Notes under the pieces: model-generated
Database searches by the model: none
What the model was told of the DNA's origin: nothing
Seen by the model: the letters and a program-made list of their open reading frames with translations, nothing else
Program-made: the position numbers and the translations under genes
Shown here: in pieces, positions 19,609 to 44,581 of the stretch
Layout of the letters: the number at the start of each line of letters is the position of its first letter
Position numbering within the stretch: the stretch's first letter is position 1
From: Candidatus Acidiferrales bacterium
Lineage (GTDB): Bacteria; Acidobacteriota; Terriglobia; Acidoferrales; UBA7541
Length of the DNA: 53,294 nucleotides
NCBI GenBank assembly: GCA_030043155.1
Contig: JASHYE010000326.1
Coordinates: forward strand, 1 to 53,294
Reading direction: 5' to 3'

Positions 19609-19637
19609 TTGACACAAAGTCTGTAGAGCCTCAGAAT
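19609..19637 (+). promoter_or_regulatory. Promoter of fluoride unit A
   Basis: A perfect -35 TTGACA (19609-19614), a 17-base spacer and -10 CAGAAT (19632-19637). Transcription should begin near 19644, about seven bases before the fluoride aptamer. The same promoter-aptamer spacing is seen at the other three riboswitches, which raises confidence. Confidence 0.65.
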
Positions 19638-19650
19638 ATCGCTTGAGATT

Positions 19651-19723
19651 GGGTGTTGGAGTTCGCCTTAAACCGCCCTATCGGGCAAATAACTCCTACA
19701 AGGGGATTTTCCTGGTAGGGGTT
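19651..19723 (+). promoter_or_regulatory. Fluoride riboswitch A (crcB motif) controlling the MutS-like pair
   Basis: The aptamer is 19651-19700. It matches the crcB motif: P1 GGTG/CGCC, loop strand GGAGTT that forms the pseudoknot with AACTCC (19691-19696), the TTAAACCGC joining region, and a GCCC/GGGC stem-loop. Downstream GTAGGGGTT (19715-19723) can instead pair with AACTCCTAC (19691-19699), extended by AGG/CCT, which would break the pseudoknot. Fluoride binding should therefore prevent this hairpin and switch the unit on. No U tract follows, so the mechanism may not be simple termination. The first gene starts at 19791. Confidence 0.85.
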
Positions 19724-19790
19724 GCTGCTTACAACGATTTCTCCCGCTAGGTTTCAAATCCCCTTTGAATGGCCAAGTCGAGGCTTGCCA

Positions 19791-21332
19791 ATGCACTTTG
19801 AAAGCATCTTATTTCCCCATTCAGGCGAGGACATCCTAAAAACTCAAACTCACGAACTGCCCGACTTCTTCCATGACCTGAATCTCGATCAGATCGTCGT
19901 AGCTATCGCGGCGTTATCGAAGGATTACGACATTGCACCTTTCTACCAGGTGCCCGCCGGCGATTTCGAGACGGTTGTGTATCGGCAAGAAGTCATGCGA
20001 GACCTCGAAGACAAGCTCCTGATGCAAGCGATCAAGGGCTTTTCCGAGGCAATGCGCAAGGTGCGCGAGCGGCTCGCACAGGCAAAGCAAGTCGAATATT
20101 ACAAATACAGCAAAGAGCGCCGTTTCCTCTCCGCAGTCCAGATCTACTGCGAGGCCGTCGAGCAACTGTCCGGCCAATTATGCGCGCTCGAAGTCAAATC
20201 GGAAGGCATGCGACTGTTTTTTGAGTATTTGAAGGACTATACGGCAGCCTCTCCATTTCGCACGCTCCTTACTGACACGACAGAACTGAATTCCCGCCTT
20301 TCGGCCATTCGTTACAGCGTGCTGATTCGGAATCGCGGTGTCACGGTATGCGACGACGATATCGAGAGCGATTACAGCGATGCGGTGGAAATGGCATTTG
20401 AAAAATTCAGGCATGAAGCGGCCCGCCACTATCGGCTCGAAGACCTGATGTGGGAAGGCATGAACCACATCGAAGCACAAGTTCTGGATCGCGTGGCGCT
20501 CCTACATCCAGACGTTTTCCAGTCGCTTGATGAATTCTGTGAAGCACATGCCGATTATCTGGATGCGACCATCTCGCGTTTCGACAAGGAAGTGCAGTTC
20601 TACGTTTCGTATCTCACGTTTATCGAACAGTTTCGGCGAATCGGATTGAGCTTCTGTTTTCCGGAAATCTTGGAAACATCAAAAGAGATCGCCGGCAGCA
20701 ATGCCTTCGATCTTGCATTAGCCAATAAGTTGATTAAAGAAAAGGGGGTCGTCGTCCCAAACGACTTCTTTCTTAGTGGGCCGGAACGCATTTTCGTCGT
20801 TTCTGGGCCAAACCAGGGCGGTAAGACGACGTTCGCACGGATGATCGGCCAGTTGCATTATCTCGCGTGCCTCGGCTGCCCCGTTCCGGGTACTGAGGCG
20901 CGACTTTTCCTTTTTGACCAGCTTTTCACGCATTTCGAACGGCAAGAGAAGATTGCCAGCTTGCGCGGCAAACTACAGGACGACCTGTTTCGTATCCACC
21001 GAATTCTCGATGACGCAACCACCAACAGCCTGATTATCATGAACGAGATGTTCTCCTCGACCGCCGTTAAGGATGCCCTTTATTTGAGCAAAGAGGTGAT
21101 GACAAGAATTTCTGACCTCGATCCGCTCTGCGTGTGGGTTACGTTTCTCGATGAGCTGGCCTCATTCAATCAGAAAACAGTGAGCATGGTCAGCACAGTG
21201 AATCCAGAAAATCCCACCAGTCGCACGTTCCGCCTGGAGCGGCGGTCCGCCGACGGACTTGCCTATGCGATGGCAGTCGCTCAGAAACATCGCATCACTT
21301 ATGAGTCCTTGATGGAGCGAATCAAAGCGTGA
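19791..21332 (+). CDS. MutS-family ATPase, first of a pair, without mismatch-recognition domain
   Basis: The protein has 513 residues from ATG at 19791 (GAGG nearby); a TTG at 19722 in the riboswitch hairpin is unlikely. It has a long helical lever/clamp region (about 1-340) and an ABC-type ATPase domain with Walker A GPNQGGKTTFARMIG and a Walker B-like strand SLIIMNEMFSSTAVKDA, where the usual Asp-Glu is Asn-Glu. It lacks MutS domain I and its Phe-x-Glu mismatch wedge. MutS-like proteins are, to my memory, among genes reported downstream of crcB-motif RNAs. The cellular role is unknown; it could sense or repair damaged nucleic acid, or act like MutS2 on other structures. Confidence 0.88.
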   Translation: MHFESILFPHSGEDILKTQTHELPDFFHDLNLDQIVVAIAALSKDYDIAPFYQVPAGDFETVVYRQEVMRDLEDKLLMQAIKGFSEAMRKVRERLAQAKQVEYYKYSKERRFLSAVQIYCEAVEQLSGQLCALEVKSEGMRLFFEYLKDYTAASPFRTLLTDTTELNSRLSAIRYSVLIRNRGVTVCDDDIESDYSDAVEMAFEKFRHEAARHYRLEDLMWEGMNHIEAQVLDRVALLHPDVFQSLDEFCEAHADYLDATISRFDKEVQFYVSYLTFIEQFRRIGLSFCFPEILETSKEIAGSNAFDLALANKLIKEKGVVVPNDFFLSGPERIFVVSGPNQGGKTTFARMIGQLHYLACLGCPVPGTEARLFLFDQLFTHFERQEKIASLRGKLQDDLFRIHRILDDATTNSLIIMNEMFSSTAVKDALYLSKEVMTRISDLDPLCVWVTFLDELASFNQKTVSMVSTVNPENPTSRTFRLERRSADGLAYAMAVAQKHRITYESLMERIKA

Positions 21333-22894
21333 GACCGCATTTGATGTTTCGCAGCCGCGATTTTGATATCGGTGAATTCCCACGATTCGTGCCGCATCGG
21401 GACCGAAATGTCCCATGGCAGCGATTTTTGACCTCCCATGAGCGCGAACTTGTAGAGGATTTGGAATTACCGACTATGCTGCACGCCATGGCCGGTGGCG
21501 ATGAGTTCCTTTTTGAAGTAGCACGAACGGCAGTCCTGAGTGGTCTGTCGAACGATGCGGAAACGATCCTTTATCGACACGAGGCTTTGCGAGATTGTCT
21601 CAACAATTCTGGCGGAGTTAGGCAACTTTACGACATCGCTGTCTTAGCCCTCGAACGCGCGAGAGACCGGTCTTGGGGCATGTCCAGCCACTACTCCTCT
21701 TCACTTCTATACGGCGCGGTTGGATTACTTGAGGGGTTATCCCACATCCTTAGGCAACTGCGAATATTCTCCGAATCACTGGCTGATCGATTCGACTCAG
21801 AAGCATTCAGGAACCTCTTTGCAATACTGCGTACCGAACTGAGCGACGACTATTTGAAGCTCATTCAGACCCACCTGACAGAATTGAAATTCCGTAAGGG
21901 AACCCTGCTCGGAGCACAGCTTGGTGAATGGAACGAAAGTGCCAACTTAATCCTTCACAGCATGCCTGCTAAGAAACGGAACATCCTGGAGAGGCTTGTC
22001 ACGAGGACGCCCCGGACTTACAGCTTCCGAATAGCTCAGGAGGACGCAACTGGAGCGCGGATTATATCCGATATGACACATCGCGGGATAAGTCGCGTGG
22101 CAATTGCTCTCGCGCAATCCGCTGACCACGTCCTGAGCTTTTTCAAGGTGCTTCGCGCGGAATTGGGTTTTTACGTTTGCTGCTTGAACCTACATGATCG
22201 CCTTGCGGCGCTCCAAGAGCCGGTGTGTTTCCCGAAGCCTGTTTCCGCAGGCTCAAGACAGGCTAGCTTCAGCGCTTTGTACGACGTATGCCTCTCGCTT
22301 CAAATGAAGCGCACAGTTGTGGGCAACACCTGCAATCTGGATGGTAAAAATCTCGTAGTCATAACCGGCCCCAATCAAGGTGGGAAATCGAGCTTCTTGC
22401 GAAGCATTGGCCTGGCGCAGTTAATGATGCAATCTGGAATGTTCGTCGGCGCAGAAGATTTTCGTGCGGAGATATGCCCGGCGTTGTTCACGCATTATAA
22501 ACGGGAAGAAGATGCTTCGATGGAGAGCGGTAAGTTCGATGAAGAACTGGCCAGAATGAGCGAAATCGCCGACCACATCATTCCAGACTCCATGCTGCTC
22601 CTCAACGAGTCGTTCACCGCCACCAACGAGCGCGAAGGATCGGAAATCGCACGGCAGATTGTCTCCGCCCTCTTGGAAAAACGAATCAAGATATTCTTCG
22701 TGACGCACCTCTACGGATTTGCGCGACAGGCGTTCGAGCGAAATTCAGGCCACGCCATTTTCTTGCGCGCCGAGCGTCAGCCGGACGGCGTCAGAACATT
22801 CAAAATGCTCGAAGGCGAGCCTCTCGAAACCAGCTATGGGGCTGACCTTTATCGCGAGATTTTTACTCCCAGTGCAGAACGTCAAGAAGCGTAG
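21329..22894 (+). CDS. MutS-family ATPase, second of the pair
   Basis: The protein has 521 residues and starts at a GTG that overlaps the stop of the first gene (GTGA), so the two are translated together and may form a heterodimer. The layout is the same: about 350 helical residues and an ABC ATPase domain with GPNQGGKSSFLRSIG and SMLLLNESFTATNEREGSEIA, again Asn-Glu in place of Asp-Glu, followed by IFFVTHLYGFARQAF (the conserved histidine loop). No mismatch-recognition domain is present. The pair is similar in plan but clearly diverged, not a recent duplicate. It converges on the pyrophosphatase gene. Confidence 0.88.
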   Translation: MRPHLMFRSRDFDIGEFPRFVPHRDRNVPWQRFLTSHERELVEDLELPTMLHAMAGGDEFLFEVARTAVLSGLSNDAETILYRHEALRDCLNNSGGVRQLYDIAVLALERARDRSWGMSSHYSSSLLYGAVGLLEGLSHILRQLRIFSESLADRFDSEAFRNLFAILRTELSDDYLKLIQTHLTELKFRKGTLLGAQLGEWNESANLILHSMPAKKRNILERLVTRTPRTYSFRIAQEDATGARIISDMTHRGISRVAIALAQSADHVLSFFKVLRAELGFYVCCLNLHDRLAALQEPVCFPKPVSAGSRQASFSALYDVCLSLQMKRTVVGNTCNLDGKNLVVITGPNQGGKSSFLRSIGLAQLMMQSGMFVGAEDFRAEICPALFTHYKREEDASMESGKFDEELARMSEIADHIIPDSMLLLNESFTATNEREGSEIARQIVSALLEKRIKIFFVTHLYGFARQAFERNSGHAIFLRAERQPDGVRTFKMLEGEPLETSYGADLYREIFTPSAERQEA

Positions 22895-22973: not shown

Positions 22974-23519
22974 TTAGACCGCGCGGGCGCTGCTGTATTT
23001 AGCGGCATAGCGCTTCAGCGCAGAGTCAATAATCGGGTACGCATCCTTCGCTGGGCAAATATCCTCGACATCGACTATCTTCTTTTCCAGTTGTTTGTAA
23101 TCCTGAAAAAAACGCCTCAGCATCAAGAGGTAATGTGCGGGAATCTCGGAAGCTTCGTGATACCCGTTGAATTCCGGGTCGCCCGTCGCGACGGCAATGA
23201 TTTTGTGATCGAGAACTCCGGCATCCGTCATAATCATCATCCCAATCGCACGCGCATTTATCACCACCAGAGGAAGAACTGACTCTTGGCAGAGCACAAG
23301 CACGTCCAGGGGATCACCATCTTCCGCAAGCGTGCGGGGTATGAAACCGTAGTTCGCCGGGTAGTACACAGCGGAATACAGAACACGGTCCAGCTTGATT
23401 AAGCCGGTTTCCTTTTCGAGTTCGTATTTCACGTTTGAACCGAGCGGAATTTCAACCACCGCATCAAATTGCTGCGGCACTTTTTTGCCCGGACTAATGT
23501 CGTGCCACGGATGAACCAT
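22974..23519 (-). CDS. ppa: Inorganic pyrophosphatase, family I
   Basis: The protein has 181 residues, the standard length for a soluble bacterial enzyme that splits pyrophosphate to phosphate and drives biosynthesis. Recognised features are VVEIPLGSNVKYELEKETGLIKLDRVLYS, YPANYGFIPRTLAEDGDPLDVLVL with the metal-binding acidic D-x-D-x-x-D pattern, and the DPEFNGY segment. It is the last gene of fluoride unit B. Fluoride is a classical strong inhibitor of this enzyme through the metal site, so making more of it under fluoride makes sense as target replacement. Confidence 0.96.
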   Translation of the reverse strand: MVHPWHDISPGKKVPQQFDAVVEIPLGSNVKYELEKETGLIKLDRVLYSAVYYPANYGFIPRTLAEDGDPLDVLVLCQESVLPLVVINARAIGMMIMTDAGVLDHKIIAVATGDPEFNGYHEASEIPAHYLLMLRRFFQDYKQLEKKIVDVEDICPAKDAYPIIDSALKRYAAKYSSARAV

Positions 23520-23566: not shown

Positions 23567-25297
23567 TCAATCGCGCAGCTTGAGGACTTCATTCTCCACA
23601 ATTCCGAGGCGTCCAAGGGCAGCCTGCACAGCGGCGGCGCCCGAAGCTTGCGCAGCTTTGGCTCTTGCCAGTGCGCGCTCCGCGACCGCAATCGTTTCAC
23701 GCAGAAGGGTTTTGATATTCGATTCCAGTTTCCTCCGGCTCTCGCGAATGCGCTCGTCCACATCGCTTTGCACCCGAGCGCTGTTGATCTCGAGAAGATT
23801 ATCCAAGAACTCTCGCGCATCGTTCACGATAGCACGCCTCAGGTGCAGGAGACCGCGCACATAGTCAGCAACCAGCAACAAGGGTGATGCGGGTGCAGCC
23901 ACATGTTCCATCACGTGAAAATAAAAGTGAGACTCTGACTGAAATCCCTGTTCCGAGCCGATCTCTTCCGGCAGACCGCCGAAATCAGGTGTGCCTGTAT
24001 TAGCCAGGCGTCGTATAAAATCGTTTCCCATCTCGACAAAACGGCGAACCGTTCGTGTGAACGCATCTTCAGCATGTTTTGCCTCACTATCCAGCCATGG
24101 AACGAGTTCCGCACGAGCTACGTCCTGTGCCAAATGATTCAGCGCGCGGCGATAGCGCGGGCCATTGGACGTAGGAGCTACATGAGCGAGACGTTCTCCA
24201 AAGGCGTGCTGCGCATTCTTTGCCGATGTCTTGAGAAAGACTCTTCGATGTTCCGCGAACATCTCCGATAAGCGCTGTTGCTCGGCGGTTAAAAGCGCAC
24301 CGAGGTCGCGCATCGCCCGCTCCCCATCCGCGACCGCAGTTCGCAAATCAGCCATGCGACGCTCGGATTCCTCTACCGGCCGCAGCAATGCGTTACGCTC
24401 TTCGGCGACAATTGCGAGTAGCTGCTCAGCAGTGCGCCGCAGTCCCCGTTTTGCGGCTGCACGGACCAGGGTGCGCCCGGAGCGCTCAACGAGGCAGGTG
24501 AGCGACTCGATCAGTTCAGGCCAATCTCTCGCTGGGCCGCGATTCTCCAAACGCTCCAATGCGCTAACTTGAAAGATTACGGGCAGGGGTCGTCCCAATC
24601 GCTGCTCCAAGACTTTCCGTGCAAAGGCGACCGCTTCCACGCGCTCGGACTCACTTGTTCGATCTGCCTTGTTCAAAACGAAGATCAGCTCATGCACTTC
24701 CTGGCTCACGGATTGAACCAGTTGAAGTTCGTCGCCCGAAAGCGGCGGGTCCGCTCCGACCAGCACGATTGCGGCGTCAATGTGAGGGATGAACGCACGA
24801 GTCGCCTCGGTATTTCCAGCGTGAACAGAGCCGAGTCCTGGCGTATCCACCAAACACATTCCCGTTTTCAGCAGCGCGTTTGGTGCAAATATTTCCAGCC
24901 CCGAAACTCGTTTTTCATTTCCGGGATTCTTCTCCTCAGAAACATACTCTGCAGTTGCACTGACCGGAATATCTGTCCAATCCGCGCTTTCAAAGCGAAC
25001 CCGCGCGGCAACGGATTCACCGTAGCGGATAATAGTGGGTACCGCGGTGACTGGAACAACACCCATTGGAAGCACTGGCGAGCCGACCAGTGCGTTCAGC
25101 AGAGTTGATTTGCCGCGCTTGAACTGCCCAACGCAGGCAAGATAGAACCTTCCTTCGTATACTCGCTCCGCTATGGATCGCGCGGTCGCGGCGAGTTGGT
25201 CCGCGCCAAAGTCACTCGCGATTTCCGCAACTCTGAGAAGGCCGTCCTCACCGATCACGGCTTGCGGTGTGCTTTGATGAGAATCGGGCAGGTTCAT
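23567..25297 (-). CDS. Dynamin-like GTPase (unit B, second)
   Basis: The protein has 576 residues. G1 is GQFKRGKST (about residues 57-65), the switch region has GVVPVTAVPT, G3 is DTPGLGS and G4 is NKAD. The G domain is followed by a long helical stalk-like region (about 270-576) and no clear transmembrane helix. This matches bacterial dynamin-like proteins, which bind and remodel membranes and often work as unlike pairs. The start lies two bases after the ATPase gene stop, so the two are coupled. Other dynamin-like genes at 28266 and 30552 are diverged paralogs. Confidence 0.88.
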   Translation of the reverse strand: MNLPDSHQSTPQAVIGEDGLLRVAEIASDFGADQLAATARSIAERVYEGRFYLACVGQFKRGKSTLLNALVGSPVLPMGVVPVTAVPTIIRYGESVAARVRFESADWTDIPVSATAEYVSEEKNPGNEKRVSGLEIFAPNALLKTGMCLVDTPGLGSVHAGNTEATRAFIPHIDAAIVLVGADPPLSGDELQLVQSVSQEVHELIFVLNKADRTSESERVEAVAFARKVLEQRLGRPLPVIFQVSALERLENRGPARDWPELIESLTCLVERSGRTLVRAAAKRGLRRTAEQLLAIVAEERNALLRPVEESERRMADLRTAVADGERAMRDLGALLTAEQQRLSEMFAEHRRVFLKTSAKNAQHAFGERLAHVAPTSNGPRYRRALNHLAQDVARAELVPWLDSEAKHAEDAFTRTVRRFVEMGNDFIRRLANTGTPDFGGLPEEIGSEQGFQSESHFYFHVMEHVAAPASPLLLVADYVRGLLHLRRAIVNDAREFLDNLLEINSARVQSDVDERIRESRRKLESNIKTLLRETIAVAERALARAKAAQASGAAAVQAALGRLGIVENEVLKLRD

Positions 25298-25299
25298 TG

Positions 25300-26109
25300 C
25301 TAAAAATTCATCGGGTGGGCGAAACGATTCGCGCCCAATTTCATGACGTAGTCCACATGCACGAGTTTCGTTTTAATCTGCTCGCCGTAGTGGTACCGCC
25401 GATCGGCGGCCAATTCACACATCCCCACTATGGCTCCAGGCAGTCGTTCGCTCATTTGCAGAATCTCTTCGCGAAAACCATCCAAGTCCATAGTGTCGAG
25501 ACCAAATCTGCGGATGCAGGTTTCAAGCAACTCCCGCGCGGCTGATTCCGTCACCGGCCCTAAATGGATTCGATATTCATCCGTCCAGTAGAGGCTCCAG
25601 GCATAACCGATTTCGCGCTGAGTAAATCCTTCTCCGGTGAGATACACCGGTGTTTTGCAGCGGTACATGAACTCCTTCATCGTCCGCACCAACTTCGGTC
25701 CCGACGGTGGAAGATGGTCCAGAAAGAAACGGTATTGACCCTGTTCGGCCGCCGTGAATAGTATCCCGCGTAGTCGCATTGTGGACTGCCTGTTGAGCCA
25801 AGACCGGACAGAACTTGCACGTACTCCGTCTGCATGCACTTTCGTTTGAACAAAAACATCGCCTGCCTCATACAGCTTGCCAACGATATGCTGAACCAGT
25901 TCCCGTCCGGTTCCCACTCCACTCCAGCAGATGCATGACTGATTTTCTTGTCTCGGAAGCTCTTCCACCGCTGTTTTGACCAGGAATGTTTTCCCGGCGC
26001 CTATCGGCCCCCAGATCAGCCGACTCTCGCGCCGATGAATGGCATTCTTCAGTCGGCTGAGTTCGGAATCCCGGCCAATCAGCGAACTGACTGAAATAGC
26101 CACTGGCAT
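25300..26109 (-). CDS. AAA/STAND-like P-loop ATPase
   Basis: The protein has 269 residues. FIGRDSE-like start (SLIGRDSELSRLKNAI) and Walker A GPIGAGKTFLVK (about residues 34-45) match ATPases of the AAA16/Orc1-Cdc6-like type; RFFLDHLPPSG looks like the Walker B strand. GPVTESAARELLETCIRRFG resembles the lid domain start. There is no attached effector domain, so it likely works on a partner, perhaps the dynamin-like GTPase encoded two bases downstream. AGGAGGCAGCG before the ATG supports the start. I do not know its substrate. Confidence 0.75.
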   Translation of the reverse strand: MPVAISVSSLIGRDSELSRLKNAIHRRESRLIWGPIGAGKTFLVKTAVEELPRQENQSCICWSGVGTGRELVQHIVGKLYEAGDVFVQTKVHADGVRASSVRSWLNRQSTMRLRGILFTAAEQGQYRFFLDHLPPSGPKLVRTMKEFMYRCKTPVYLTGEGFTQREIGYAWSLYWTDEYRIHLGPVTESAARELLETCIRRFGLDTMDLDGFREEILQMSERLPGAIVGMCELAADRRYHYGEQIKTKLVHVDYVMKLGANRFAHPMNF

Positions 26110-30475: not shown

Positions 30476-30483
30476 GCAGTACG

Positions 30484-34344: not shown

Positions 34345-34351
34345 TAAATCA

Positions 34352-36557: not shown

Positions 36558-36621
36558 CAAAACCCACTCCTCTCTTCCCAAATCGCTGCGTTGCTGCTAT
36601 TAGGATTTCGAATTATGCCGA

Positions 36622-38817
36622 TCATCCAGGAAAGATTCCTCTGAAGAGAAAGTCGCGCGCCGCACCGATCCTGCCGGTTCCGATAAGTAGGACTGCAAGA
36701 AGACTGAGGAGCACATATGCTGCATAGACATTTACGCGGCCACGATGCATCTTACGGAACTGGTTGGCCATCCAAAGAACGCCGGCAAGAATCGGCCGCG
36801 TCAGCATCCGGTCCAGGATGTGCTCCTGAACTTCTTCCAGGCGAATGGAGGTTCGAAAGTGCCCTCCGACAGTTTGCACCGTCTGACTCTTGACAGGTTT
36901 GAAAACGTTCTCAAAGAGCACACGGACGGGCGCGGAGAGTCCGGTGAAATTGTAGGTCATCTGCGGCAAAAGCCTTGGCAGCCCCCCTGCCCATGCGTTC
37001 TGTTTCTTCGCCTTTCTCTTTTGCGTGACGATGCGAAATACGATGTAGGTAAGTAAAAGAATCAGAGCGAACACGACAAGCATATACGTTGTGGACATGG
37101 CGAAGACCACTGGATTGCTGCTCCCGCCTTGATGCAACACCACGAGGCCGCGCCCTGGAAGAACTCGATGCCCCACCTGCGCGCCCAGATCATGGAAATC
37201 CGAAACGAACCCGCGGCTCAGATTCCCCGGAGCAAGCGGTGTTACATGGAAAAAATCCGGTACCAGTGCCTTCGCCGAGAACGTGTGGGTAATGGGTGAA
37301 ACAACACGATCAAGACTTGGAATGACGTATGTCGGAGCGATGCCGAGGAGCAGGCACAGTATCGCTAGCGCACCCATTCCCCACGTCGCAGAACGAGGTG
37401 CGGGTCGCGCATCTCGCGCGACGGCAGAATGAGGCATGCCAAGAAAACCAGAGGCGTAGATCATCAGGAAGCATGTTAAAGCGAGACCTGCAGCCAAGGT
37501 CAACATTGCTCCTGTGAACACAAAACAAAGCCGAACAGAGCCCGATGAGAGCTCCACAGAACGCAAAATCGATTGCAGTGTCAGCCACTCACTAACGAAT
37601 CCATTAAAGGGCGGAACGGAGCCAATGGACAATATTCCCACAAAGAACAGGAACGCCATCGCCGGCATTTGCCGTGACAAACCGCCGAGTTTGTTCAAAT
37701 CATGCGTGCCAGTCGAAGCTTCGATTCCTCCCGCACCTACGAACAGCAACGCCTTGTAAAGCGAGTGATTCGTCATGTGGTACAGGGAAGCGACGAACGC
37801 CATTCCCGCAAGGACGCTGTGTCCCGACTGCCAAAAAACGAGTCCCGCTCCCATTCCTGCGATAACAATGCCCATATTTTCGATCGAACTATGGGCCAGG
37901 GCACGCTTAAGATCTGTCTGTGTCGCTGCATAAACGATCCCCAAGATTGCTCCGAGAGCGCCTACTACAAGAGCGACAACCCCTGGCCCCGCTTCGGTGA
38001 CGGGAGCGAGTTTTGTATTCACAAGGAAGATTGCGTAAATCCCTAAATTAAGGGTGGCTCCAGAAAGCACGGGAGACAACGAGCGCGGGGCCACGGTGTG
38101 CGTATCAGGGAGCCATTGGTTCACAGGAACTAAGCCAGCTTTCACCCCAAAGCCGTAAAACGTCAGAAGAAAAATCAACCAGCGAGCCAGTTCACCGGCT
38201 CTATTGTTATCTGCCGCAATCGCTGCGAATGATGTATGTCCAGAATAGGCCGAGAGAATAAGCAAACCTATTATTCCAGCCAGCGAACCAACCTCGCTCA
38301 GCACCAGTGTAGAAAGGGCAGCTCGCATCGATCGATCACTCCCCGTCCCGAAAAGCACGAGGCCGTAAATCAAGGCTGAAACCACCTCCCACCAGAACGC
38401 AAACGTCAGCACATCTCCGGCGGCAATTACCATGACGATCGCGATATAGAACAGTTGAAACAATGCAAGGAATATACGATTACCGCCACGCTCTCCTTCG
38501 ACAGTTTTTGTCCGATCAGCATTGGAAAACGCGACGAAGGGGTAGCATGCTGCAAAGACGACCGCAGTTATAATGACGAACAGGCTTCCAAGCGGAGTCA
38601 GGTAGAGAGACAATGTTTCAGGGCCGAGTCTCCATAAACCGATCTGAAAGCCGGTCTGATGAACTAGCACCAGAACACCGCACGCCAGCAATACCGCCGA
38701 TTGGCCGAGCGTTAGTACCGTAATGACAAGGGCGCGCACATGACTTCGCCGGTTCACACAGACGACGATTCCGCAAGCACTCAGGAACAGAAACAGAATG
38801 AGAAGTCTGCCGGCCAT
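36622..38817 (-). CDS. hyfB: HyfB/NuoL-like membrane subunit, first copy
   Basis: The protein has 731 residues from ATG at 38817 (AAGGA six bases upstream; the TTG just before it is less likely). About 14-16 membrane helices; conserved channel parts include DLKRALAHSSIENMGIVIAG, GVKAGLVPVNQWLPDTH and NHSLYKALLFVGAGG. C-terminal residues (about 600-680) include a cytoplasmic stretch WAGGLPRLLPQMTYNFTGLSAPVRV typical of HyfB. Two such subunits in tandem, together with a HyfF-like one, give three antiporter-like channels in one complex, as in respiratory complex I. Confidence 0.9.
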   Translation of the reverse strand: MAGRLLILFLFLSACGIVVCVNRRSHVRALVITVLTLGQSAVLLACGVLVLVHQTGFQIGLWRLGPETLSLYLTPLGSLFVIITAVVFAACYPFVAFSNADRTKTVEGERGGNRIFLALFQLFYIAIVMVIAAGDVLTFAFWWEVVSALIYGLVLFGTGSDRSMRAALSTLVLSEVGSLAGIIGLLILSAYSGHTSFAAIAADNNRAGELARWLIFLLTFYGFGVKAGLVPVNQWLPDTHTVAPRSLSPVLSGATLNLGIYAIFLVNTKLAPVTEAGPGVVALVVGALGAILGIVYAATQTDLKRALAHSSIENMGIVIAGMGAGLVFWQSGHSVLAGMAFVASLYHMTNHSLYKALLFVGAGGIEASTGTHDLNKLGGLSRQMPAMAFLFFVGILSIGSVPPFNGFVSEWLTLQSILRSVELSSGSVRLCFVFTGAMLTLAAGLALTCFLMIYASGFLGMPHSAVARDARPAPRSATWGMGALAILCLLLGIAPTYVIPSLDRVVSPITHTFSAKALVPDFFHVTPLAPGNLSRGFVSDFHDLGAQVGHRVLPGRGLVVLHQGGSSNPVVFAMSTTYMLVVFALILLLTYIVFRIVTQKRKAKKQNAWAGGLPRLLPQMTYNFTGLSAPVRVLFENVFKPVKSQTVQTVGGHFRTSIRLEEVQEHILDRMLTRPILAGVLWMANQFRKMHRGRVNVYAAYVLLSLLAVLLIGTGRIGAARDFLFRGIFPG
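38386..38602 (-). repeat. Near-identical patch shared by the two HyfB-like genes (copy 2)
   Basis: Partner of 36126-36342, at an offset of 2260 bases. See that entry for the comparison. Confidence 0.85.
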
Positions 38818-38860
38818 CAATATTCCTTAGTTCTTCAAAAATCGAGATTAAAAGTGTGTC

Positions 38861-39604
38861 CTAGCCAAGCTCGCTCGTTATCGAGCGAGGCGGAACTCGC
38901 TCAACTGCAAGCAAAATCCCATGAAGAATCGCCAATGGCGGAGGCGGGCATCCCGGAACCACCACATCCACTGGAATGCATTTGTCAATCCCGCCCGCTG
39001 AGGCGAACGATGTTCCGAAAACTCCTCCCGAGATCGCGCAGACTCCCATTGCAATGACCCGCTTCGGTTCAGGCATCGCCTCGTAGACTTCCCGAAGCGG
39101 CTTTCTCATTGCATCCGAGAGCGGCCCCGCTGCAAGCAAAATGTCCGCTTGTCGCGGCGTAGCGGTCGTGAAGAACCCGAGGCGGTGCATGTTGTAGTAG
39201 GGATTGTTCAGCAAGCGTGCCTCACTCATGCACGCTCCGCATGCACCTGCATCCACAAACCGGATATGCAGCGACCGGCCAAATGCGCTCTTCAGGCGGC
39301 GATGAATATCTTCGGGCGCAAGTCGCGCGCCCCACTCGTATCCTTCGTTCCAATCCACAACTGCCGGTCCGTCTCGACGGCAGCGGCTGCAGAGAATGCA
39401 AGTGTGATAATCGACGTTCACCCCGCCAGCCGTCGGCGTGAAACAATCTTGCGGACAACGCTGCGCAACACTCTCCGCTAAATCTTGTGCCATTCTTGTT
39501 GCGACTGGACGGCCGGGACTCACGCCAGGATTCTCATCCGCAGCGGCGGGATAGCGGCTGCTCTTCAATCCTGTCGCCAATCCTCTTCCTAACCAATGCA
39601 GCAC
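38861..39604 (-). CDS. hyfI: HyfI/NuoB-like small subunit fused to a short ferredoxin-like domain
   Basis: The protein has 247 residues, GTG start with GGGGAG seven bases upstream. The N-terminal 95 residues hold RCPQDCF and CILCSRC, enough cysteines for one [4Fe-4S] cluster, and resemble a cut-down HycF/HyfH ferredoxin. The C-terminal 150 residues are NuoB-like, with the four cluster cysteines kept in CGACMSE, GVCAISGG and VPGCPPPP. So electron-carrying clusters remain although the neighbouring large subunit has no Ni-Fe site. I see no separate HyfH-type ferredoxin gene, which fits the fusion. Confidence 0.85.
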   Translation of the reverse strand: MLHWLGRGLATGLKSSRYPAAADENPGVSPGRPVATRMAQDLAESVAQRCPQDCFTPTAGGVNVDYHTCILCSRCRRDGPAVVDWNEGYEWGARLAPEDIHRRLKSAFGRSLHIRFVDAGACGACMSEARLLNNPYYNMHRLGFFTTATPRQADILLAAGPLSDAMRKPLREVYEAMPEPKRVIAMGVCAISGGVFGTSFASAGGIDKCIPVDVVVPGCPPPPLAILHGILLAVERVPPRSITSELG

Positions 39605-39616: not shown

Positions 39617-41218
39617 CTAACGATCACACTCCGCATTCGACAAGCCAAACGTAGCCAGGATGATCGGAAAGTCCTGAAACCCAAACCCCTCTAGCGCAAT
39701 CCGAAAGGCCATCCAGTTCCGAAAGGATGGAGTCCGCACCCGATACCGCAAAACGCGACCCTCTTCATCCAAGCGCACCCAGTGCAAGGCCGCACCGATT
39801 GGCGCTTCGACCGCTCCGAAGCCTACCCCTCGTTTCACATTAACGGGTGCCCGGACCTCCCCAGCCTCCAACGACCCCGCTACTTTACGGATGAGCCGGA
39901 CCGATTCTGCTGCTTCTCTGAACAGAATCCGTAGCCGAGCATATCCGTCGCCTTCTGCTTCTGTGGGCACTTCAACCCTGAGCGCTTCATATTCCGCATA
40001 AGGAAACAGCACGCGAAAATCGCCCGCGCACCCTGAAGCTCGCGCGATAGGGCCAACCAATCCGTAGGCGCGTGCACTTTTCGCAGTGACGATTCCCACC
40101 TCTTCGATCCGATCCAAGAAGCTGCTCGAAAAGCGAAGTCCTTTCTCCAGTTCTGCGAGTCGCTTCTCTGCACCACTAACTTGCCCCGTGATCTCATGCG
40201 CTTCCGCTTCACTGATATCGATAGCAGTCCCTCCGGGACACACGGCGCCGAACAGGTAACGATGTCCCGTCACAACACAGGACAACCGAAGCAGTTCCTC
40301 ATCGACGATGGCGGCTTGGGCTTCTGCGACATCTAGTCCCGTCGAATGGCAAATAGCAGCAATATGTCCTACGTGATGCCGCAACCGTTCCAGTTCCGCA
40401 AACAGACACCGCAACTGGGCCGCGCGCCGGGGAACAGAACAGTTCGTGATGGCCTCGACAGCCTGACAAAACGCAAGCCCGTGGGCAAAAGCCGAGCTTC
40501 CCGAAAACCGTTCAGCCAACAGCAGCGCATCTTCTGCCCTTCGTCCTTCCGCGATCTTTTCGACGGCCCGATACTTATAAAAGAACCGCGGAACCACACG
40601 GATCATCTCTTCCCCAGTCGTTTCCAGGATGTATTGCGCCGATTCCGCGAAATCCGAAAATACCGGACCTATCGGCAACGCCATTGCACCGGGTGCTTCG
40701 ACAATAGGAGAAGGATATGCGGGCATGGGCGATCTGGATTCCGGCGCGCCTTGCGTAGTCGCAAATTCGCGGCGCATGGGGTTGACGCCTTCGGGCCAAT
40801 GCTCATGCAATACGAATTCGCCGAGTTTTGGGTGCCCGGAGAAACGCAATCCGAACAGATCCTCGGCTTCCCGCTCCTCCCAATCCGCTCCGTAGACGAG
40901 ATCGCTGATCGAAGGCGCCGGATCACTTCTCTCCGGCAGTCCGACAATGATTTGTGCCCGCCCCCTCCCGTGTGATTCGTGAAACAGGTAGGCAAGCTCC
41001 CATCCGTCCGTGGTTTGCTCCGGCACGATCGTGTCGAAGGCGCACCCCAAATCGTTTTGTAGCCATCCGACCAACTCTCTCAACCGGCTCGCAGGGCAAT
41101 CAAATCGGAAGTTCGTACGACTGTCGCGGCGGTCTTGTTTTGCCGCGACAGCAAATCGCTCTCGGGCAGCATCCCCGAGGAAGTTCCAGTTAATCGTCTC
41201 TGTCTGCACTTCACTCAT
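39617..41218 (-). CDS. hyfG: HyfG/HycE-like large subunit lacking Ni-Fe cysteines (Ehr type)
   Basis: The protein has 533 residues. The N-terminal part (about 1-150) is like NuoC (YGADWEEREAEDLFGLRFSGHP), and the rest is like the NuoD/hydrogenase large subunit (RVVPRFFYKYRAVEKIAEGR, HNVGH-like RHHVGHIA). Where hydrogenases have R-x-C-G-x-C, this protein reads RFSGSS (about 237-242); the C-terminal D-P-C-x-x-C is also absent (ends FPIILATFGLSNAECDR). It therefore cannot hold a Ni-Fe centre. It belongs with energy-converting-hydrogenase-related complexes, whose reaction is unknown. Confidence 0.9.
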   Translation of the reverse strand: MSEVQTETINWNFLGDAARERFAVAAKQDRRDSRTNFRFDCPASRLRELVGWLQNDLGCAFDTIVPEQTTDGWELAYLFHESHGRGRAQIIVGLPERSDPAPSISDLVYGADWEEREAEDLFGLRFSGHPKLGEFVLHEHWPEGVNPMRREFATTQGAPESRSPMPAYPSPIVEAPGAMALPIGPVFSDFAESAQYILETTGEEMIRVVPRFFYKYRAVEKIAEGRRAEDALLLAERFSGSSAFAHGLAFCQAVEAITNCSVPRRAAQLRCLFAELERLRHHVGHIAAICHSTGLDVAEAQAAIVDEELLRLSCVVTGHRYLFGAVCPGGTAIDISEAEAHEITGQVSGAEKRLAELEKGLRFSSSFLDRIEEVGIVTAKSARAYGLVGPIARASGCAGDFRVLFPYAEYEALRVEVPTEAEGDGYARLRILFREAAESVRLIRKVAGSLEAGEVRAPVNVKRGVGFGAVEAPIGAALHWVRLDEEGRVLRYRVRTPSFRNWMAFRIALEGFGFQDFPIILATFGLSNAECDR

Positions 41219-41232: not shown

Positions 41233-42684
41233 TTAAATTCCTAATGCCCTGGCCGCGCCTTCAAACAAGCTTTGCAGCGAACTCGGGAGGTAAAAACCGA
41301 GAACTAGCATAGGGATAAATGCAATCACAATCGCCAAACCGCAAATGGTTGGGGATTTGTGCCCATTGAACTCGCCGCCTGAACCAAATACCATCGCCGT
41401 GATATGGAACGTAATTGCGCAAAAGGCTATCGCCACAAACAAAGCAAGCAAACCAACGACGATGTAGTGCTTCGAAAATACGGCGGCTCGAAAGATGAAG
41501 AATTCGCTAATGAAAACGGCGAACGGCGGCGCTCCGGCTATGCCAAGCCCGCCCAAAAGAAGGGCCACGGCAGTTCCGGGCGATCTGTGCATAATGCCTC
41601 TTACCTTCGCTACTTCCTGAGTTCCCGTTAAAATCAAAACCGCTCCTGCCGCGAAAAAGCACAGCGATTTTGTGAGCGTGTGCGCTGCGACCTGATAGAC
41701 GGCCGCAAAGTGAGCAGGAAAGCCTCCGAGTCCAACCGCGACCATGATGATTCCCATCTGCTCCACCGTTGAAGCGCCGAACATTCGTTTGTAGTCATGA
41801 ACGCGGATCAACACGAAAGCCGCCACTCCAACGGATACAAGTCCCACCGCGCAAAACCATGCCGACTGATTGGCAACATGGCTCGCCTGAAGCACCGGAA
41901 AAAGCCGCATCAGCACGTACAAGACAGTCGTGGTCTCGATCCCGGAAAGCAGCGCGCACACAGGCGCTGGCGCTTGGCTATGCGCGTCGGGAAGCCACGT
42001 GTGCAGCGGAACCAGTCCTACTTTCGTTCCAAACCCGACCAGACACAGAAGGAAGCCGAGCCACAGAATGGCAGGAGGAACGTGCGACGCTCCTTGCGAC
42101 AATCCTTGCCATGTGAAAGGCAGCTCTCCGCCAGCTTGCGTTCCCCAATAAAGCAGGAGAAAACCAAAAAGCCCAATGATTGCGCCCGCGCTTGTCAAAA
42201 TCACGTATTTCCACGCCGCTTCGAGTGCTTCTGGTGTATCCACGTACGCCACCAGATAAGCGGACATCAGCGTCGTGAGTTCAATCGCAACCCACACAAG
42301 CGTCAAATGTGCTAGCACCGGAGCGGACAGCATGGACAGGACGAACAGGTTGTAAAGCACGAAATAGCTTTGTACGCGGCGAACGCTATCCTCAGTCCCT
42401 CGATGAATCACGATATATCCATAGGAAAACAGGCTGGCGGTAAACGCAACAAATGCCACGAGCAGCACGATCACCGCTGACAAACTGTCGGCCACGAGGA
42501 AACCACGAACCGCTGTTATTGCTCCGAATCGCAGCACGAGTCGCGCGATATCCGCTGTGAGAATCAGCTCCGCCACGCATGCCGCAATCGTGATTTTTCC
42601 CGCGAAGCGCCCGGATTTTAGAGGTGTGGCAGATAAGATCGCGCCAGCGATCGGAACGAGCAACAAGAGAGCAAGAGGATTCAT
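41233..42684 (-). CDS. hyfF: HyfF/NuoN-like antiporter-type membrane subunit
   Basis: The protein has 483 residues with about 14 membrane helices. WVAIELTTLMSAYLVAY has the conserved glutamate, GTKVGLVPLHTWLPDAHSQAPAPV and the TLTKSLCFFAAGAV lysine are typical of proton-channel subunits of complex I and hydrogenase-4. It lies between hyfE and hyfG in unit D. It is of standard length with no visible defect. Confidence 0.92.
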   Translation of the reverse strand: MNPLALLLLVPIAGAILSATPLKSGRFAGKITIAACVAELILTADIARLVLRFGAITAVRGFLVADSLSAVIVLLVAFVAFTASLFSYGYIVIHRGTEDSVRRVQSYFVLYNLFVLSMLSAPVLAHLTLVWVAIELTTLMSAYLVAYVDTPEALEAAWKYVILTSAGAIIGLFGFLLLYWGTQAGGELPFTWQGLSQGASHVPPAILWLGFLLCLVGFGTKVGLVPLHTWLPDAHSQAPAPVCALLSGIETTTVLYVLMRLFPVLQASHVANQSAWFCAVGLVSVGVAAFVLIRVHDYKRMFGASTVEQMGIIMVAVGLGGFPAHFAAVYQVAAHTLTKSLCFFAAGAVLILTGTQEVAKVRGIMHRSPGTAVALLLGGLGIAGAPPFAVFISEFFIFRAAVFSKHYIVVGLLALFVAIAFCAITFHITAMVFGSGGEFNGHKSPTICGLAIVIAFIPMLVLGFYLPSSLQSLFEGAARALGI

Positions 42685-42687
42685 GGT

Positions 42688-43365
42688 CTAACGCTCTCCC
42701 AGCGCGGAAAGTTCCCCCACGCGCGTCGTTCCAAGCTTGCGATGAATTTGACGGATCAATAGCCCGAACACCAGAGCCATGATCGGCAAATCGACCGCAG
42801 CGGCAATTTCGGCCAGCGCCGGTAAGTGCGATGCGATAGCTGCTCCCGCAAAGAACACCGAGTTTTCCATCACAAGCAGACCCATCAGTTGCGCAATCGC
42901 TTCCCGGCGAACCGTCACTGTGAACATGCCAAGCAATACGCAAGCAATTCCCACGGGAAGATTCAGAATCGTAAACTCCGGCGCAGTGACCATGAAAAAC
43001 AGCCGTTCTGAAATAAAGAACCCAAAGAACACTAATCCCGCAGCCAGGATCAGTGACGTAGGGATCGTGACGACCTGATCGACTTCGCGCCTGCCGTAGA
43101 TTTCATCTCCCACCGTCAGTTTCAACACCCACGGCACACCAATGACTTTCGTCACGATCACGATTCCCGCGACGATGAGCAAATGCACGGAGTGAGTTCC
43201 GATCCCGATGGCAACGGCCGATGCCGCGAGCAATAAAGATTCCAGCACAAACAATCGCAACGTCGCCAGCATCTGCCGAGTCGCAACAATCGCCAGAGAT
43301 ACGAGGAAAAACAGGGCGCTCGCAAGAGCGTCAAATCCGACCAAAGCCTGATGTGGCGTCTGCAT
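42688..43365 (-). CDS. hyfE: HyfE-like small membrane subunit
   Basis: The protein has 225 residues and about six membrane helices. It resembles HyfE, which corresponds to the NuoK region of complex I in its C-terminal part (GLLVMENSVFFAGAAIASHLPALAEIAAAVDLP, with the glutamate in a membrane helix). It starts three bases after the hyfC-like stop, so the genes are tightly coupled. Hydrogenase-4-type operons carry this subunit, while the shorter formate hydrogenlyase-1 does not. Confidence 0.88.
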   Translation of the reverse strand: MQTPHQALVGFDALASALFFLVSLAIVATRQMLATLRLFVLESLLLAASAVAIGIGTHSVHLLIVAGIVIVTKVIGVPWVLKLTVGDEIYGRREVDQVVTIPTSLILAAGLVFFGFFISERLFFMVTAPEFTILNLPVGIACVLLGMFTVTVRREAIAQLMGLLVMENSVFFAGAAIASHLPALAEIAAAVDLPIMALVFGLLIRQIHRKLGTTRVGELSALGER

Positions 43366-43368
43366 TTC

Positions 43369-44319
43369 CTAAATCCCCACGAGGCTCGCGACCATCGCCA
43401 TCACACAAACAACAAATGAAGCTCCGAGAAATTCGTTGATCCGAAACAAGCGCAGTTTGGAGAGGTTCGATTCAATCGTGACCAGCAAGAGCACGAATAT
43501 GAGGAGCTTCACGAACACGAGTGGAATCGCAACCAGAATATCGGCGAAGCCTTTTCCGGACGCCAACCCCCAGGGCGTAACCAGCACATTGCAAAAAACG
43601 ACGGCTAGCACCATGAACTTCATCGCTCCAGCCCATTTCATCAGCGCAGCGCCTCGCCCGGAATATTCCAGGAACTTTGATTTTCCGATCATGGCCAACT
43701 CGAAATTCCCGTGCGGATTGTCAACGGGAATGCGGTTCTCGTCCGCAAGAAAGAGCATCAGAAACGCAATTACCGCGAGGATATGAGCAGGCCCCCAAAA
43801 AATCTGGCTCGAAAAAGACCAGCTTTTCTGAACGATGTAGGGAATCGTTGATCCCGCAACAAATGAGACCGTAAAGAACACCATCATGAACACGGGTTCA
43901 GCCAGAAAGCTCACCATGCGTGACCGGCTTGCGCCAATCGAGCCGTAAGGATTCGTCGTATCAACCGCCGCAAATGTCGTCAGCGCACCGCTCAGGGCAA
44001 ACAGAAAACCGACCGCCAGCATGTCGCCCATAAACGCGAAGAACAGAGGATAGTCCGTCAGCACCGGTATCAGCAGCGCGACAAAGATGGGCATTGCGAA
44101 TGCGAAATAGGGAGCGGCGCGAAATATCCATGAACTATGCGACGAGACAATCTCGTCTTTTTGAAGCAGCTTCCAAATATCTCTGTAAATCTGAAAGATG
44201 CTCGGGCCGCGTTTCGACTGCACCATCTCTTCCAGCCGCGCAAGAATGCCTTCGAGCAGCGGCGAAAGAAAGAGAACCGCTGTCACTTGGACCAAATTGA
44301 AAAGCAGGCTACGCCCCAT
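43369..44319 (-). CDS. hyfC: HyfC/NuoH-like membrane anchor subunit (first main gene of unit D)
   Basis: The protein has 316 residues and about eight membrane helices. It matches HyfC/HycD: LEEMVQSKRGPSIFQIYRDIWKLLQKDEIV near the N-terminus and ENRIPVDNPHGNFELAMIGKSKFLEYSGR in the middle, which in complex I line the quinone/soluble-arm junction. GGAGGAG ends three bases before ATG. It lies about 165 bases after riboswitch D. The connection between the cluster-bearing arm and the channel subunits should pass through this protein. Confidence 0.92.
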   Translation of the reverse strand: MGRSLLFNLVQVTAVLFLSPLLEGILARLEEMVQSKRGPSIFQIYRDIWKLLQKDEIVSSHSSWIFRAAPYFAFAMPIFVALLIPVLTDYPLFFAFMGDMLAVGFLFALSGALTTFAAVDTTNPYGSIGASRSRMVSFLAEPVFMMVFFTVSFVAGSTIPYIVQKSWSFSSQIFWGPAHILAVIAFLMLFLADENRIPVDNPHGNFELAMIGKSKFLEYSGRGAALMKWAGAMKFMVLAVVFCNVLVTPWGLASGKGFADILVAIPLVFVKLLIFVLLLVTIESNLSKLRLFRINEFLGASFVVCVMAMVASLVGI

Positions 44320-44461
44320 GCGCTCCTCCGAATGGCGCGATGTGCGCTACCGTTGAAATTCTGTGGGTAAATGCAGAATCGTTTGCGTCAGGAAAAGGCC
44401 GGAACACCGAAGGCCAACTTCTGTTGAGGCGCTGTTTTCCCTTTTGATTCACACCTATCAC
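44309..44461 (-). CDS. Possible 50-codon leader ORF in the 5' leader of fluoride unit D
   Basis: A GTG at 44461 opens an unbroken frame of 50 codons ending in TAG at 44309-44311, overlapping the HyfC-like start by 11 bases. AGGAG stands six bases before the GTG and lies in the 3' arm of the riboswitch hairpin, so it would be hidden without fluoride and free with fluoride. The peptide (begins VIGVNQKGKQRLNRS) matches nothing I know. It could serve only to couple translation to hyfC, or be chance. Confidence 0.3.
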   Translation of the reverse strand: MIGVNQKGKQRLNRSWPSVFRPFPDANDSAFTHRISTVAHIAPFGGAHGA

Positions 44462-44466
44462 GGCAT

Positions 44467-44544
44467 GCTCCTAGCCAAAACTTAACTAGGAGCCATCATC
44501 TGCCGGTAGTGCAAGGCAGCGGTTTAGGGCGGGACTCCTTCGCC
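44467..44544 (-). promoter_or_regulatory. Fluoride riboswitch D (crcB motif) controlling the Ehr-type complex
   Basis: The aptamer is 44486-44544 on the minus strand: P1 GGCG/CGCC, GGAGTC pairing with GGCTCC for the pseudoknot, CCTAAACCGC joining region, CTGCC/GGCAG stem-loop and GATGATGGCTCC. Downstream CTAGGAGC (44467-44474) is a perfect eight-base match to GCTCCTAG (44486-44493), an alternative hairpin that would break the pseudoknot. No U tract follows; instead the hairpin arm contains AGGAG. To my memory, formate-hydrogenlyase-like genes are among those reported downstream of crcB-motif RNAs. Confidence 0.88.
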
Positions 44545-44553
44545 ACTCGTCGT

Positions 44554-44581
44554 ATGATACTTACATCAGCCGCAAAGTCAA
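44554..44581 (-). promoter_or_regulatory. Promoter of fluoride unit D
   Basis: On the minus strand -35 TTGACT (44576-44581), 16-base spacer and -10 TATCAT (44554-44559). The predicted start near 44547 is three bases before the aptamer. The remaining 44582-44729 bases, to the NnrS stop, show no further feature. Confidence 0.75.

Follow-up and report, generated by a model that had tools for sequence, protein, structure and literature searches.

Why does one bacterial contig carry four fluoride riboswitches within 25 kb, and what would a hydrogenase-4-like complex be doing behind one of them? The question is raised by a stretch of DNA from Candidatus Acidiferrales bacterium (contig JASHYE010000326.1, 53,294 nucleotides, here called the window), in which positions 19,609 to 44,581 contain four fluoride riboswitch sequences, each heading its own gene set, with 20 genes in total. 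A Pfam scan of the open reading frames (ORFs) agreed with the original prediction in respect of these four units and their genes. We found that the hydrogenase-like unit encodes an Ehr complex whose large subunit lacks the nickel-binding cysteines and that complexes of this type are headed by a fluoride riboswitch in nearly every close relative examined. The stretch is likely a fluoride-defence island, in which the four units would be induced together by fluoride and the nickel-less Ehr complex probably pumps ions and helps to power fluoride export.

Four riboswitch-headed units

The aptamers, the predicted promoters in front of them and the predicted pairings that would compete with the pseudoknot are located as follows.

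19643..19705, forward strand: fluoride riboswitch aptamer A (RF01734, 37.5 bits)
30422..30484, reverse strand: fluoride riboswitch aptamer B (RF01734, 36.2 bits)
34278..34352, reverse strand: fluoride riboswitch aptamer C (RF01734, 30.5 bits, E 7.4e-5, below the Rfam gathering score)
44480..44553, reverse strand: fluoride riboswitch aptamer D (RF01734, 36.3 bits)
19609..19637, forward strand: predicted promoter of unit A (TTGACA-17-CAGAAT, 10/12 consensus matches)
30484..30512, reverse strand: predicted promoter of unit B (TTGACT-17-GATAAT)
34352..34380, reverse strand: predicted promoter of unit C (TTGACT-17-CAGATT, weak, 8/12 matches)
44554..44581, reverse strand: predicted promoter of unit D (TTGACT-16-TATCAT)
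19692..19723, forward strand: predicted anti-pseudoknot pairing of switch A (duplex -16.4 vs shuffled -10.5 kcal/mol, z -2.5)
34265..34291, reverse strand: predicted anti-pseudoknot hairpin of switch C (12-bp hairpin, z -5.0)
44467..44493, reverse strand: predicted anti-pseudoknot hairpin of switch D (12-bp hairpin, z -3.9)

When the window was scanned with cmscan, copies A, B and D exceeded the curated gathering score of RF01734 (34 bits) and copy C did not, so that the expectation of good scores at all four sites held for three of them. A riboswitch model built from 35 sequences (R1; the four window copies and 31 relatives, E-values rough) gave 56.5, 60.7, 53.3 and 45.8 bits for A, B, C and D, respectively, albeit with these four copies included in the model. 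The covariation that had been claimed among the four copies was thin on those copies alone but was upheld on the 35-sequence alignment, where 90.7% of the cells were paired, both-side changes were seen in 7 of 12 pairs and all three helices were supported. The pseudoknot was 97.8% paired, with both-side changes in two of its four pairs. Sliding the partners by 1–3 columns brought the pairing down to 45–63%, and the covariation score was reached by none of 500 shuffles. Chance matches were ruled out by this sequence-and-structure model with covariation, and on these grounds all four copies are taken as real fluoride riboswitches.

A TTGAC(A/T) box begins 28–34 nt 5′ of the aptamer in all four copies, as compared with 2.7% of random window positions, and a fair -10 box was found in three of the four. 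The same box was present at 60 of 115 riboswitches of relatives against a background of 2.3%. Over 138 distinct riboswitch sites (142 sites minus four repeats), the competing pairing had a mean z of -2.05, with 75 sites below -2 and 21 above 0. Such pairing is, as predicted from the folds, the layout of a switch whose competing fold would be blocked by fluoride binding. Riboswitch B (30422–30484) is followed by a strong hairpin lying outside the aptamer.

The Ehr complex and its riboswitch linkage

Unit D, behind riboswitch D, encodes the subunits of the Ehr complex.

43369..44319, reverse strand: EhrC, NuoH-like membrane subunit, first gene of unit D (PF00146)
42688..43365, reverse strand: EhrE, NuoK-like membrane subunit (PF00420)
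41233..42684, reverse strand: EhrF, antiporter-like membrane subunit (PF00361)
39617..41218, reverse strand: EhrG, fused 30-kDa/49-kDa large subunit without nickel ligands (PF00329, PF00346, PF00374)
38861..39604, reverse strand: EhrI, NuoB-like small subunit with N-terminal ferredoxin-like Cys motif (PF01058; Cys conservation)
36622..38820, reverse strand: EhrB1, antiporter-like membrane subunit, HyfB-like (PF00361; NF005086 hydrogenase 4 subunit B below cut-off)
34404..36581, reverse strand: EhrB2, antiporter-like membrane subunit, paralog of EhrB1 (PF00361)

In EhrG, RFSGSSAFAH and LSNAECDR stand where the CxxC motifs are expected, and the HycE cysteine was aligned to serine. Nickel CxxC motifs were seen by eye in none of 28 large subunits, and a scan of the relatives L001–L080 (the best 80 of 198, see below) found the CGxC motif in 0 of 82. 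Because the large subunit lacks nickel-binding cysteines, the ‘hydrogenase-4’ unit is, judged from these residues, no hydrogenase; the earlier label ‘hydrogenase-4-like’ suits the architecture but misleads on function, the nickel site being gone. The Pfam scan of 40 window ORFs yielded no formate dehydrogenase, and the genome may encode such a partner elsewhere. The window has the features by which Ehr is defined, namely the lack of nickel CxxC motifs and the presence of NuoB-, NuoD- and NuoH-like plus antiporter-like subunits, and it shares with the Ehr complexes already described a group-4-hydrogenase-like build (PMC6349859; PMC10284858). In the available parts of these papers, the function of bacterial Ehr is called unknown (the 2023 paper) or a coupling to formate dehydrogenase is proposed, and fluoride is unmentioned. 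The window complex differs from the described ones in that its clade is tied to fluoride riboswitches, whereas 16 nickel-less control ORFs outside the clade are not.

Residue conservation was followed through the other subunits. In EhrF, K221, K299, K339 and E394 were invariant (65/65 rows), and in EhrB, K227, K356 and E411 were invariant (76/76 rows), with K305 kept in 97%; from such residues ion pumping by Ehr appears likely. At the positions of the complex I quinone-site Tyr and His, whose roles are given in PMC7684303, a printed alignment to the Aquifex 49-kDa subunit showed Gly and Phe/Ala in EhrG. Around the proximal iron-sulphur cluster of EhrI (38861–39604) and its relatives, three cysteines were invariant in 77 of 77 rows, and the fourth ligand was Cys in 36 rows, the window copy included; of the remaining 41 rows, 38 had Asn, Asp, His, Gln or Ser in its place. 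The ferredoxin-like Cys motif was kept in 75–76 of the 77 rows. Among the 120 homologs listed for the neighbouring CheA, most of them without an organism name, all names given were Candidatus Acidiferrales or Acidoferrales, so that the host is likely an acidobacterium of this order. In the tree, however, EhrG clusters with seven rows from proteobacteria, a hint that the Ehr module was transferred.

The linkage to riboswitches was examined by scanning 84,980 species genomes with the large-subunit alignment, from which 198 relatives were obtained and the best 80 kept (L001–L080), so that the set covers the nearer relatives. Upstream sequence of at least 3.7 kb was available for 66 Ehr loci, and in 65 of these a same-strand riboswitch lay 2.5–6.2 kb upstream of the large subunit, ten of these matches scoring only 20–30 bits with rough model E-values; at 30 bits or more the count was 55 of 66. 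In 59 of the 65, the riboswitch lay at 3.1–3.7 kb, which is in front of EhrC, and the sole exception (L028) had a same-strand riboswitch 6.55 kb upstream. The 14 loci with less than 3.7 kb upstream were left out; two of them had a riboswitch (L034, L058) and 12 did not. L025 duplicates L024 and is counted in 65/66; it was dropped in the de-duplicated count of 64/65, in the tree and in the module and first-gene counts. After removal of the nine genomes that had fed the model and of one duplicate, the linkage was seen in 55 of 56 loci when every reported score was admitted and in 46 of them when 30 bits were required. Second Ehr copies of the same type with their own riboswitch were found at L143, L145 and L147, and nine second copies of a more distant type also had their own (L139–L142, L146, L148–L151); the riboswitch of L151 was caught by Rfam (31.8 bits) and not by R1, and L144 was too short to judge.

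Control loci with other 49-kDa homologs from the same genomes (L159–L178) had a riboswitch in none of 20. Among the 19 controls with a large-subunit ORF, 16 were without the nickel motif, two of them with short upstream sequence, and three had it (L174–L176); 16 of the 18 controls in the tree had at least 3.8 kb upstream. Complex I was ruled out as a riboswitch target, since none of the 40 highest NuoD-type matches (at least 263 bits) lay within 28 kb of the 150 riboswitches listed. In a tree of 71 of 111 rows, the riboswitch-linked proteins formed one clade (SH-aLRT 96) and the riboswitch label changed once, the latter result being obtained without 11 short-upstream rows. The tree was a quick one with some long branches, from which about every second riboswitch-linked or short row of L001–L080 had been omitted; two ORFs repeating L139 and L150 and rows with fewer than 330 aligned residues had been dropped beforehand.

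Sampling by phylum gave a similar picture. Of 396 Acidobacteriota genomes, 133 had any riboswitch, mostly one, and only two had four or more. The Ehr type (>700 bits) was present in five of the 396, with a riboswitch 3.3–3.4 kb upstream in all five; four of these carriers were already among the nine starting genomes and one was new (G021). None of 80 weaker Acidobacteriota matches lay within 55 kb of the 139 riboswitches compared, which came from a list of part of the riboswitches in these genomes. Among 299 Pseudomonadota genomes, the sample's centre genome (G407) alone carried the Ehr type, and the type is therefore rare in this sample. Nickel-less Ehr-like proteins without a riboswitch were also observed (L159–L173, L177, L182–L186) and form a second orphan group; many of them end in KSFNLSYxG or similar, and L182–L186 have another gene order with an antiporter subunit first.

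Modules, plasmids and known partners

The genes of units A, B and C are listed below in their order behind each riboswitch.

19722..21332, forward strand: MutSa, MutS domain V ATPase only (PF00488; start probably ATG 19791, read from the sequence)
21329..22894, forward strand: MutSb, second MutS domain V ATPase (PF00488; alignment of 11)
28266..30380, reverse strand: DLP1, dynamin-like GTPase, first gene of unit B (PF00350; matches IniA and bacterial dynamin-like protein chains)
27816..28193, reverse strand: CrcB (Fluc) fluoride channel (PF02537)
27211..27852, reverse strand: CPxC-type protein (no Pfam or NCBIfam family at E 0.001)
26507..27241, reverse strand: tandem DUF190 protein (PF02641, two stretches)
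26160..26510, reverse strand: DUF190 protein (PF02641)
25300..26109, reverse strand: AAA_16 ATPase (PF13191)
23567..25297, reverse strand: DLP2, dynamin-like GTPase (PF00350)
22974..23519, reverse strand: inorganic pyrophosphatase, last gene of unit B (PF00719)
33414..34151, reverse strand: calcineurin-like metallophosphoesterase, first gene of unit C (PF12850)
32266..33234, reverse strand: HEAT-repeat protein (PF13646)
30552..32276, reverse strand: DLP3, dynamin-like GTPase with cysteine-rich C-terminal part (PF00350; weak PF19538, DUF6062, E 0.022, below cut-off)

The core of the claim of a fluoride-response island was backed by independent genomes, in which the same modules with their own switches were found in other Acidobacteriota and in several phyla. 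Six of nine acidobacterial genomes searched whole had four to seven riboswitches on one contig within ~36 kb, and at least 11 of 35 further Ehr genomes had four or more on one contig. With at least 17 of these 44 genomes, all picked for carrying the Ehr complex, having four or more matches within ~36 kb, the claim that four switches in one locus were undescribed could not be kept as a claim of uniqueness. Across the acidobacterial islands, the gene set was largely the same with order and strand shuffled, each module having its own switch (RS); the modules were RS-MutSa-MutSb, RS-phosphoesterase-HEAT-DLP3, RS-DLP1-CrcB-CPxC-DUF190-DLP2, RS-pyrophosphatase-AAA and RS-Ehr. Among the 28 of 80 loci listed, parts of the island were seen in Proteobacteria, Binataceae, Nitrospirota, Planctomycetota, Limisphaerales and Thermoleophilia, and the modules RS-MutSa-MutSb, RS-phosphoesterase-HEAT-DLP3 and RS-DUF190/CrcB occurred in several phyla.

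A same-strand switch within 7 kb upstream was found for MutSa in 11 of 13, DLP3 in 10 of 13, HEAT in 8 of 10, CrcB in 7 of 13, DLP2 in 6 of 12 and CPxC in 0 of 3 cases. The first recognised gene behind 136 riboswitches from 79 loci, which had been selected for Ehr, was EhrC in 64, a dynamin-like GTPase in 16, MutS in 11, DUF190/CrcB in 6, pyrophosphatase in 5, phosphoesterase in 3 and HEAT in 1, with other genes in 27 and none in 3. When these other first genes were pooled with those of the island loci, an enolase cluster (seven matches at six distinct places) and an S-adenosylmethionine synthetase cluster (three) emerged, along with cyclopropane synthase, MFS and Na+/H+ exchanger proteins, each cluster being named by Pfam from one member.

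The MutS-like pair and the GTPases were characterised further. The mismatch-binding domain I was not found in the pair, domain V being the only MutS domain at E up to 1, and the MutS1 model scored 68–70 bits against a cut-off of 642. The usual Walker B letters of MutS are DE, and MutSb has NES in that place. The nearest non-repair model was KamC, a MutS-like reactivase ATPase (NCBIfam NF052383, 508 positions), which matched the domain V region of both proteins at 49.8 and 73.3 bits, far below its cut-off of 300; no aminomutase was found among the 40 window ORFs scanned and no KamC paper in the literature searched. A reactivase-like role of the pair is a guess, on which the weak KamC match decides nothing. 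The AlphaFold prediction of MutSb had a mean pLDDT of 52. The dynamin-type GTPase domain PF00350 was found in three island proteins with E 8.1e-23 to 4.5e-30. A Cys/His-rich pattern common to the CPxC protein (27211–27852) and the C-terminal part of DLP3 was noticed by eye, and the two may belong to one zinc-binding domain family; proteins resembling this pattern lie behind riboswitches in L024, L046, L061 and L068.

Several modules were found on plasmids. The Caballeronia SBC1 plasmid carries the MutS-pair and Ehr units, both riboswitch-headed. The E. coli plasmid p027_SK3a (L180, 10372–25172), a mobilizable plasmid with a wide fluoride gene set, has three RF01734 matches and so further reduces the uniqueness of a multi-switch locus. 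Of the three riboswitch-headed sets, the first reads antiporter-USP-MutS-MutS, the antiporter being a cation:proton antiporter; the second reads DHHA2 protein-USP-enolase-phosphoglycerate mutase-CrcB-P-type ATPase and the third CLC-DUF190. In content, the second set corresponds to the six-gene operon that was proven by knockout to give fluoride resistance in Enterobacter cloacae FRM (PMC5533749), provided that the DHHA2 protein counts as the pyrophosphatase of that operon; the MutS-like pair is thereby placed in the direct company of tested fluoride-resistance genes. MutSb relatives were seen in 50 plasmid records, 20 of them from Klebsiella. In the acid-mine-drainage plasmid of Alicyclobacillus ALC3, six switches exceed the gathering score, and at one place (L181, 13588–15290) a riboswitch heads a lone EhrG-like gene with no other Ehr subunit in the 29-kb stretch; the EhrG-type large subunit may have a separate use of its own.

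Part of this regulon had been described before. The aptamer sequence, helices and pseudoknot in the window are those of the known class (the crcB RNA motif), which heads crcB, mutS-like and ‘formate hydrogen lyase’ genes, and mutS and formate hydrogen lyase were reported downstream of the motif by Weinberg 2010 (PMC2864571). The operon on GI3 of E. cloacae FRM, thought by its authors to be horizontally acquired, resembles the window in being riboswitch-headed and in its crcB and pyrophosphatase, with enolase found in relatives of the window (PMC5533749). It has one riboswitch and six genes, whereas the window has four and twenty and adds Ehr and the MutS-like pair. The view that most of the 20 genes were without a known fluoride role had to be given up, as the classes crcB, mutS, pyrophosphatase and formate hydrogen lyase, already published as riboswitch partners (PMC2864571; PMC11139923), account for 11 of them. 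Thus, the riboswitch class, these partners and riboswitch-headed multi-gene fluoride operons are known. In comparison with the known riboswitches, the window has four copies in 25 kb, each with a promoter-like box and a gene set, and it adds three dynamin-like GTPases and HEAT, AAA and CPxC proteins to the targets, none of which was met in the literature searched. No paper linking Ehr or dynamin-like proteins to fluoride riboswitches, or describing four-switch islands, was found in the open-licence literature searched; within that literature, three things are new, namely a clade of Ehr complexes linked to riboswitches, a modular island with several switches that recurs across phyla, and further members of the regulon. 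The fluoride regulon list with ‘formate hydrogenlyase’ is said to come from Baker 2012. The tight link joins two loose ends, the orphan Ehr complexes and the formate hydrogen lyase listed since 2010 without clear reason. Furthermore, the MutS-like pair, dynamin-like GTPases, phosphoesterase, HEAT, CPxC and AAA proteins form a recurrent fluoride-regulon list in several phyla, in part plasmid-borne, and direct attention to perhaps still unrecognised targets of fluoride toxicity.

Proposed roles and competing explanations

Since Ehr is riboswitch-headed in nearly all close relatives examined, it is likely an ion pump that aids survival of fluoride. According to a 2024 review, HF crosses membranes and acidifies the cytoplasm, fluoride export needs proton-motive force, and Na+/H+ antiporters, pyrophosphatase and formate hydrogen lyase are among the common riboswitch-associated genes (PMC11139923). 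In the proposed sequence of events, fluoride would enter as HF and release H+ and F- in the cytoplasm. Binding of F- to each aptamer would hold the pseudoknot and block the competing downstream pairing (A, C and D), so that the unit is expressed, and CrcB would let F- leave, driven by the membrane potential. Ehr would take electrons from a carrier such as ferredoxin and pass them via its iron-sulphur centres to some acceptor, while its antiporter-like subunits would move H+ (or Na+) outward and restore both the cytoplasmic pH and the potential that drives CrcB. The pyrophosphatase, and enolase in relatives, could serve as an extra copy of a fluoride-sensitive metal enzyme, as might S-adenosylmethionine synthetase. 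In the weakest step, the MutS-like pair and the dynamin-like GTPases would act in the upkeep or reactivation of proteins and membranes and not in DNA repair. An ion-pumping Ehr suits the logic of fluoride defence better than a hydrogenase does, because pH and potential would be restored and F- driven out through CrcB. More tentatively, and with appreciable doubt, the proposal may extend to the whole Ehr clade as a dedicated riboswitch-controlled pump that powers fluoride expulsion, a third arm beside exporters and spare enzymes, in which case the listed ‘formate hydrogenlyase’ would be no hydrogenase.

A number of points weigh against this reading of the island. The locus is known by its sequence, from which induction, pumping, its direction and the electron donor are all inferred, and the case for pumping comes from the conserved residues of the antiporter-like subunits. 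The variable fourth cluster ligand may mean an altered chemistry. The linkage count covers the nearer relatives and includes the ten low-scoring upstream matches. A Na+/H+ exchanger stands behind a riboswitch in the Ehr carrier L003, so that Ehr would be no simple substitute for such exchangers. As regards the switches, copy C lies under the gathering score, copy B showed no downstream pairing with the pseudoknot strand (z +0.4), and no clear T-run intrinsic terminator was found after any aptamer, so that the output may work through termination, translation or Rho.

The main rival, which we hold to be unlikely but worth serious weight, takes Ehr to be mainly a redox valve resembling the archaeal membrane-bound sulfane sulfur reductase (MBS); through a proximal cluster with an open iron site, it would discharge electrons onto a small acceptor once fluoride has blocked glycolysis and upset the balance of electron carriers. 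MBS likewise has no full nickel site, no quinone residues, a pump module and three sure proximal cysteines (PMC7684303), and the three invariant cysteines with a variable fourth position and the retained ferredoxin-like motif of Ehr would fit such a valve. However, the open site of MBS arises from a shortened Cys loop, whereas the loop in Ehr is not shortened, retains the CxxC spacing and varies in a different cysteine; the fourth Cys is replaced in about half of the members, and all four are present in the rest, the window's included. Ehr is also unlike MBS in the ferredoxin-like motif fused to its small subunit and in its riboswitch control. The ion-path residues of the antiporter-like subunits are retained, so pumping would persist even in a valve.

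Quite improbable is the explanation that several of the riboswitches are duplicates in decay, which would leave just one or two units responsive to fluoride. The low score of copy C and the lack of a competing pairing in copy B would be expected from decay, but all four copies retain the core letters and pairings and the TTGAC box, and they resemble the riboswitches found in front of these modules in other genomes. That Ehr itself is a redox-driven primary pump of F- (or HF) is hardly probable. Ehr is the most constant riboswitch partner in these Ehr-selected loci, and several of its subunits are antiporter-like, including a paralogous pair in the window; against this, CrcB or DUF190 genes are often in the same island and the sequence gives no pointer to an anion path, the ion paths of the complex-I-like superfamily being for H+ or Na+. 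A true formate hydrogenlyase or hydrogenase-4, the identity given in database names and in the riboswitch literature, by which metabolism would be shifted to fermentation in the presence of fluoride, can practically be dismissed, as it is contradicted by the missing nickel ligands (both cysteine pairs in the window EhrG), by the lack of a formate dehydrogenase among the scanned window ORFs and by the nickel-motif controls L174–L176 being without a riboswitch.

Returning to the island itself, a recent insertion at the tRNA-Glu gene (18075–18148) was rejected, as the window has the tRNA 3′ end only once and its GC content is flat at 53–57%. A mir-434 match in the window (E 4.2) was weak and put down to chance. 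To the left of the island, window positions 760–17906 hold a chemotaxis cluster (two MCPs, CheR, CheA, CheB and CheX) together with a sigma-54 regulator, a histidine kinase and a PilZ protein. The linkage of chemotaxis genes and island may be conserved, as a 77% EhrG homolog (P0003) and a 77% CheA homolog (P0130) were each found on a 180,979-base contig. To the right, positions 44730–53264 encode an NnrS-like protein (below cut-off), hemerythrin/ScdA, a Crp-family regulator, a multicopper oxidase and a NapC-type cytochrome, which likely make up a nitric-oxide or nitrite block.

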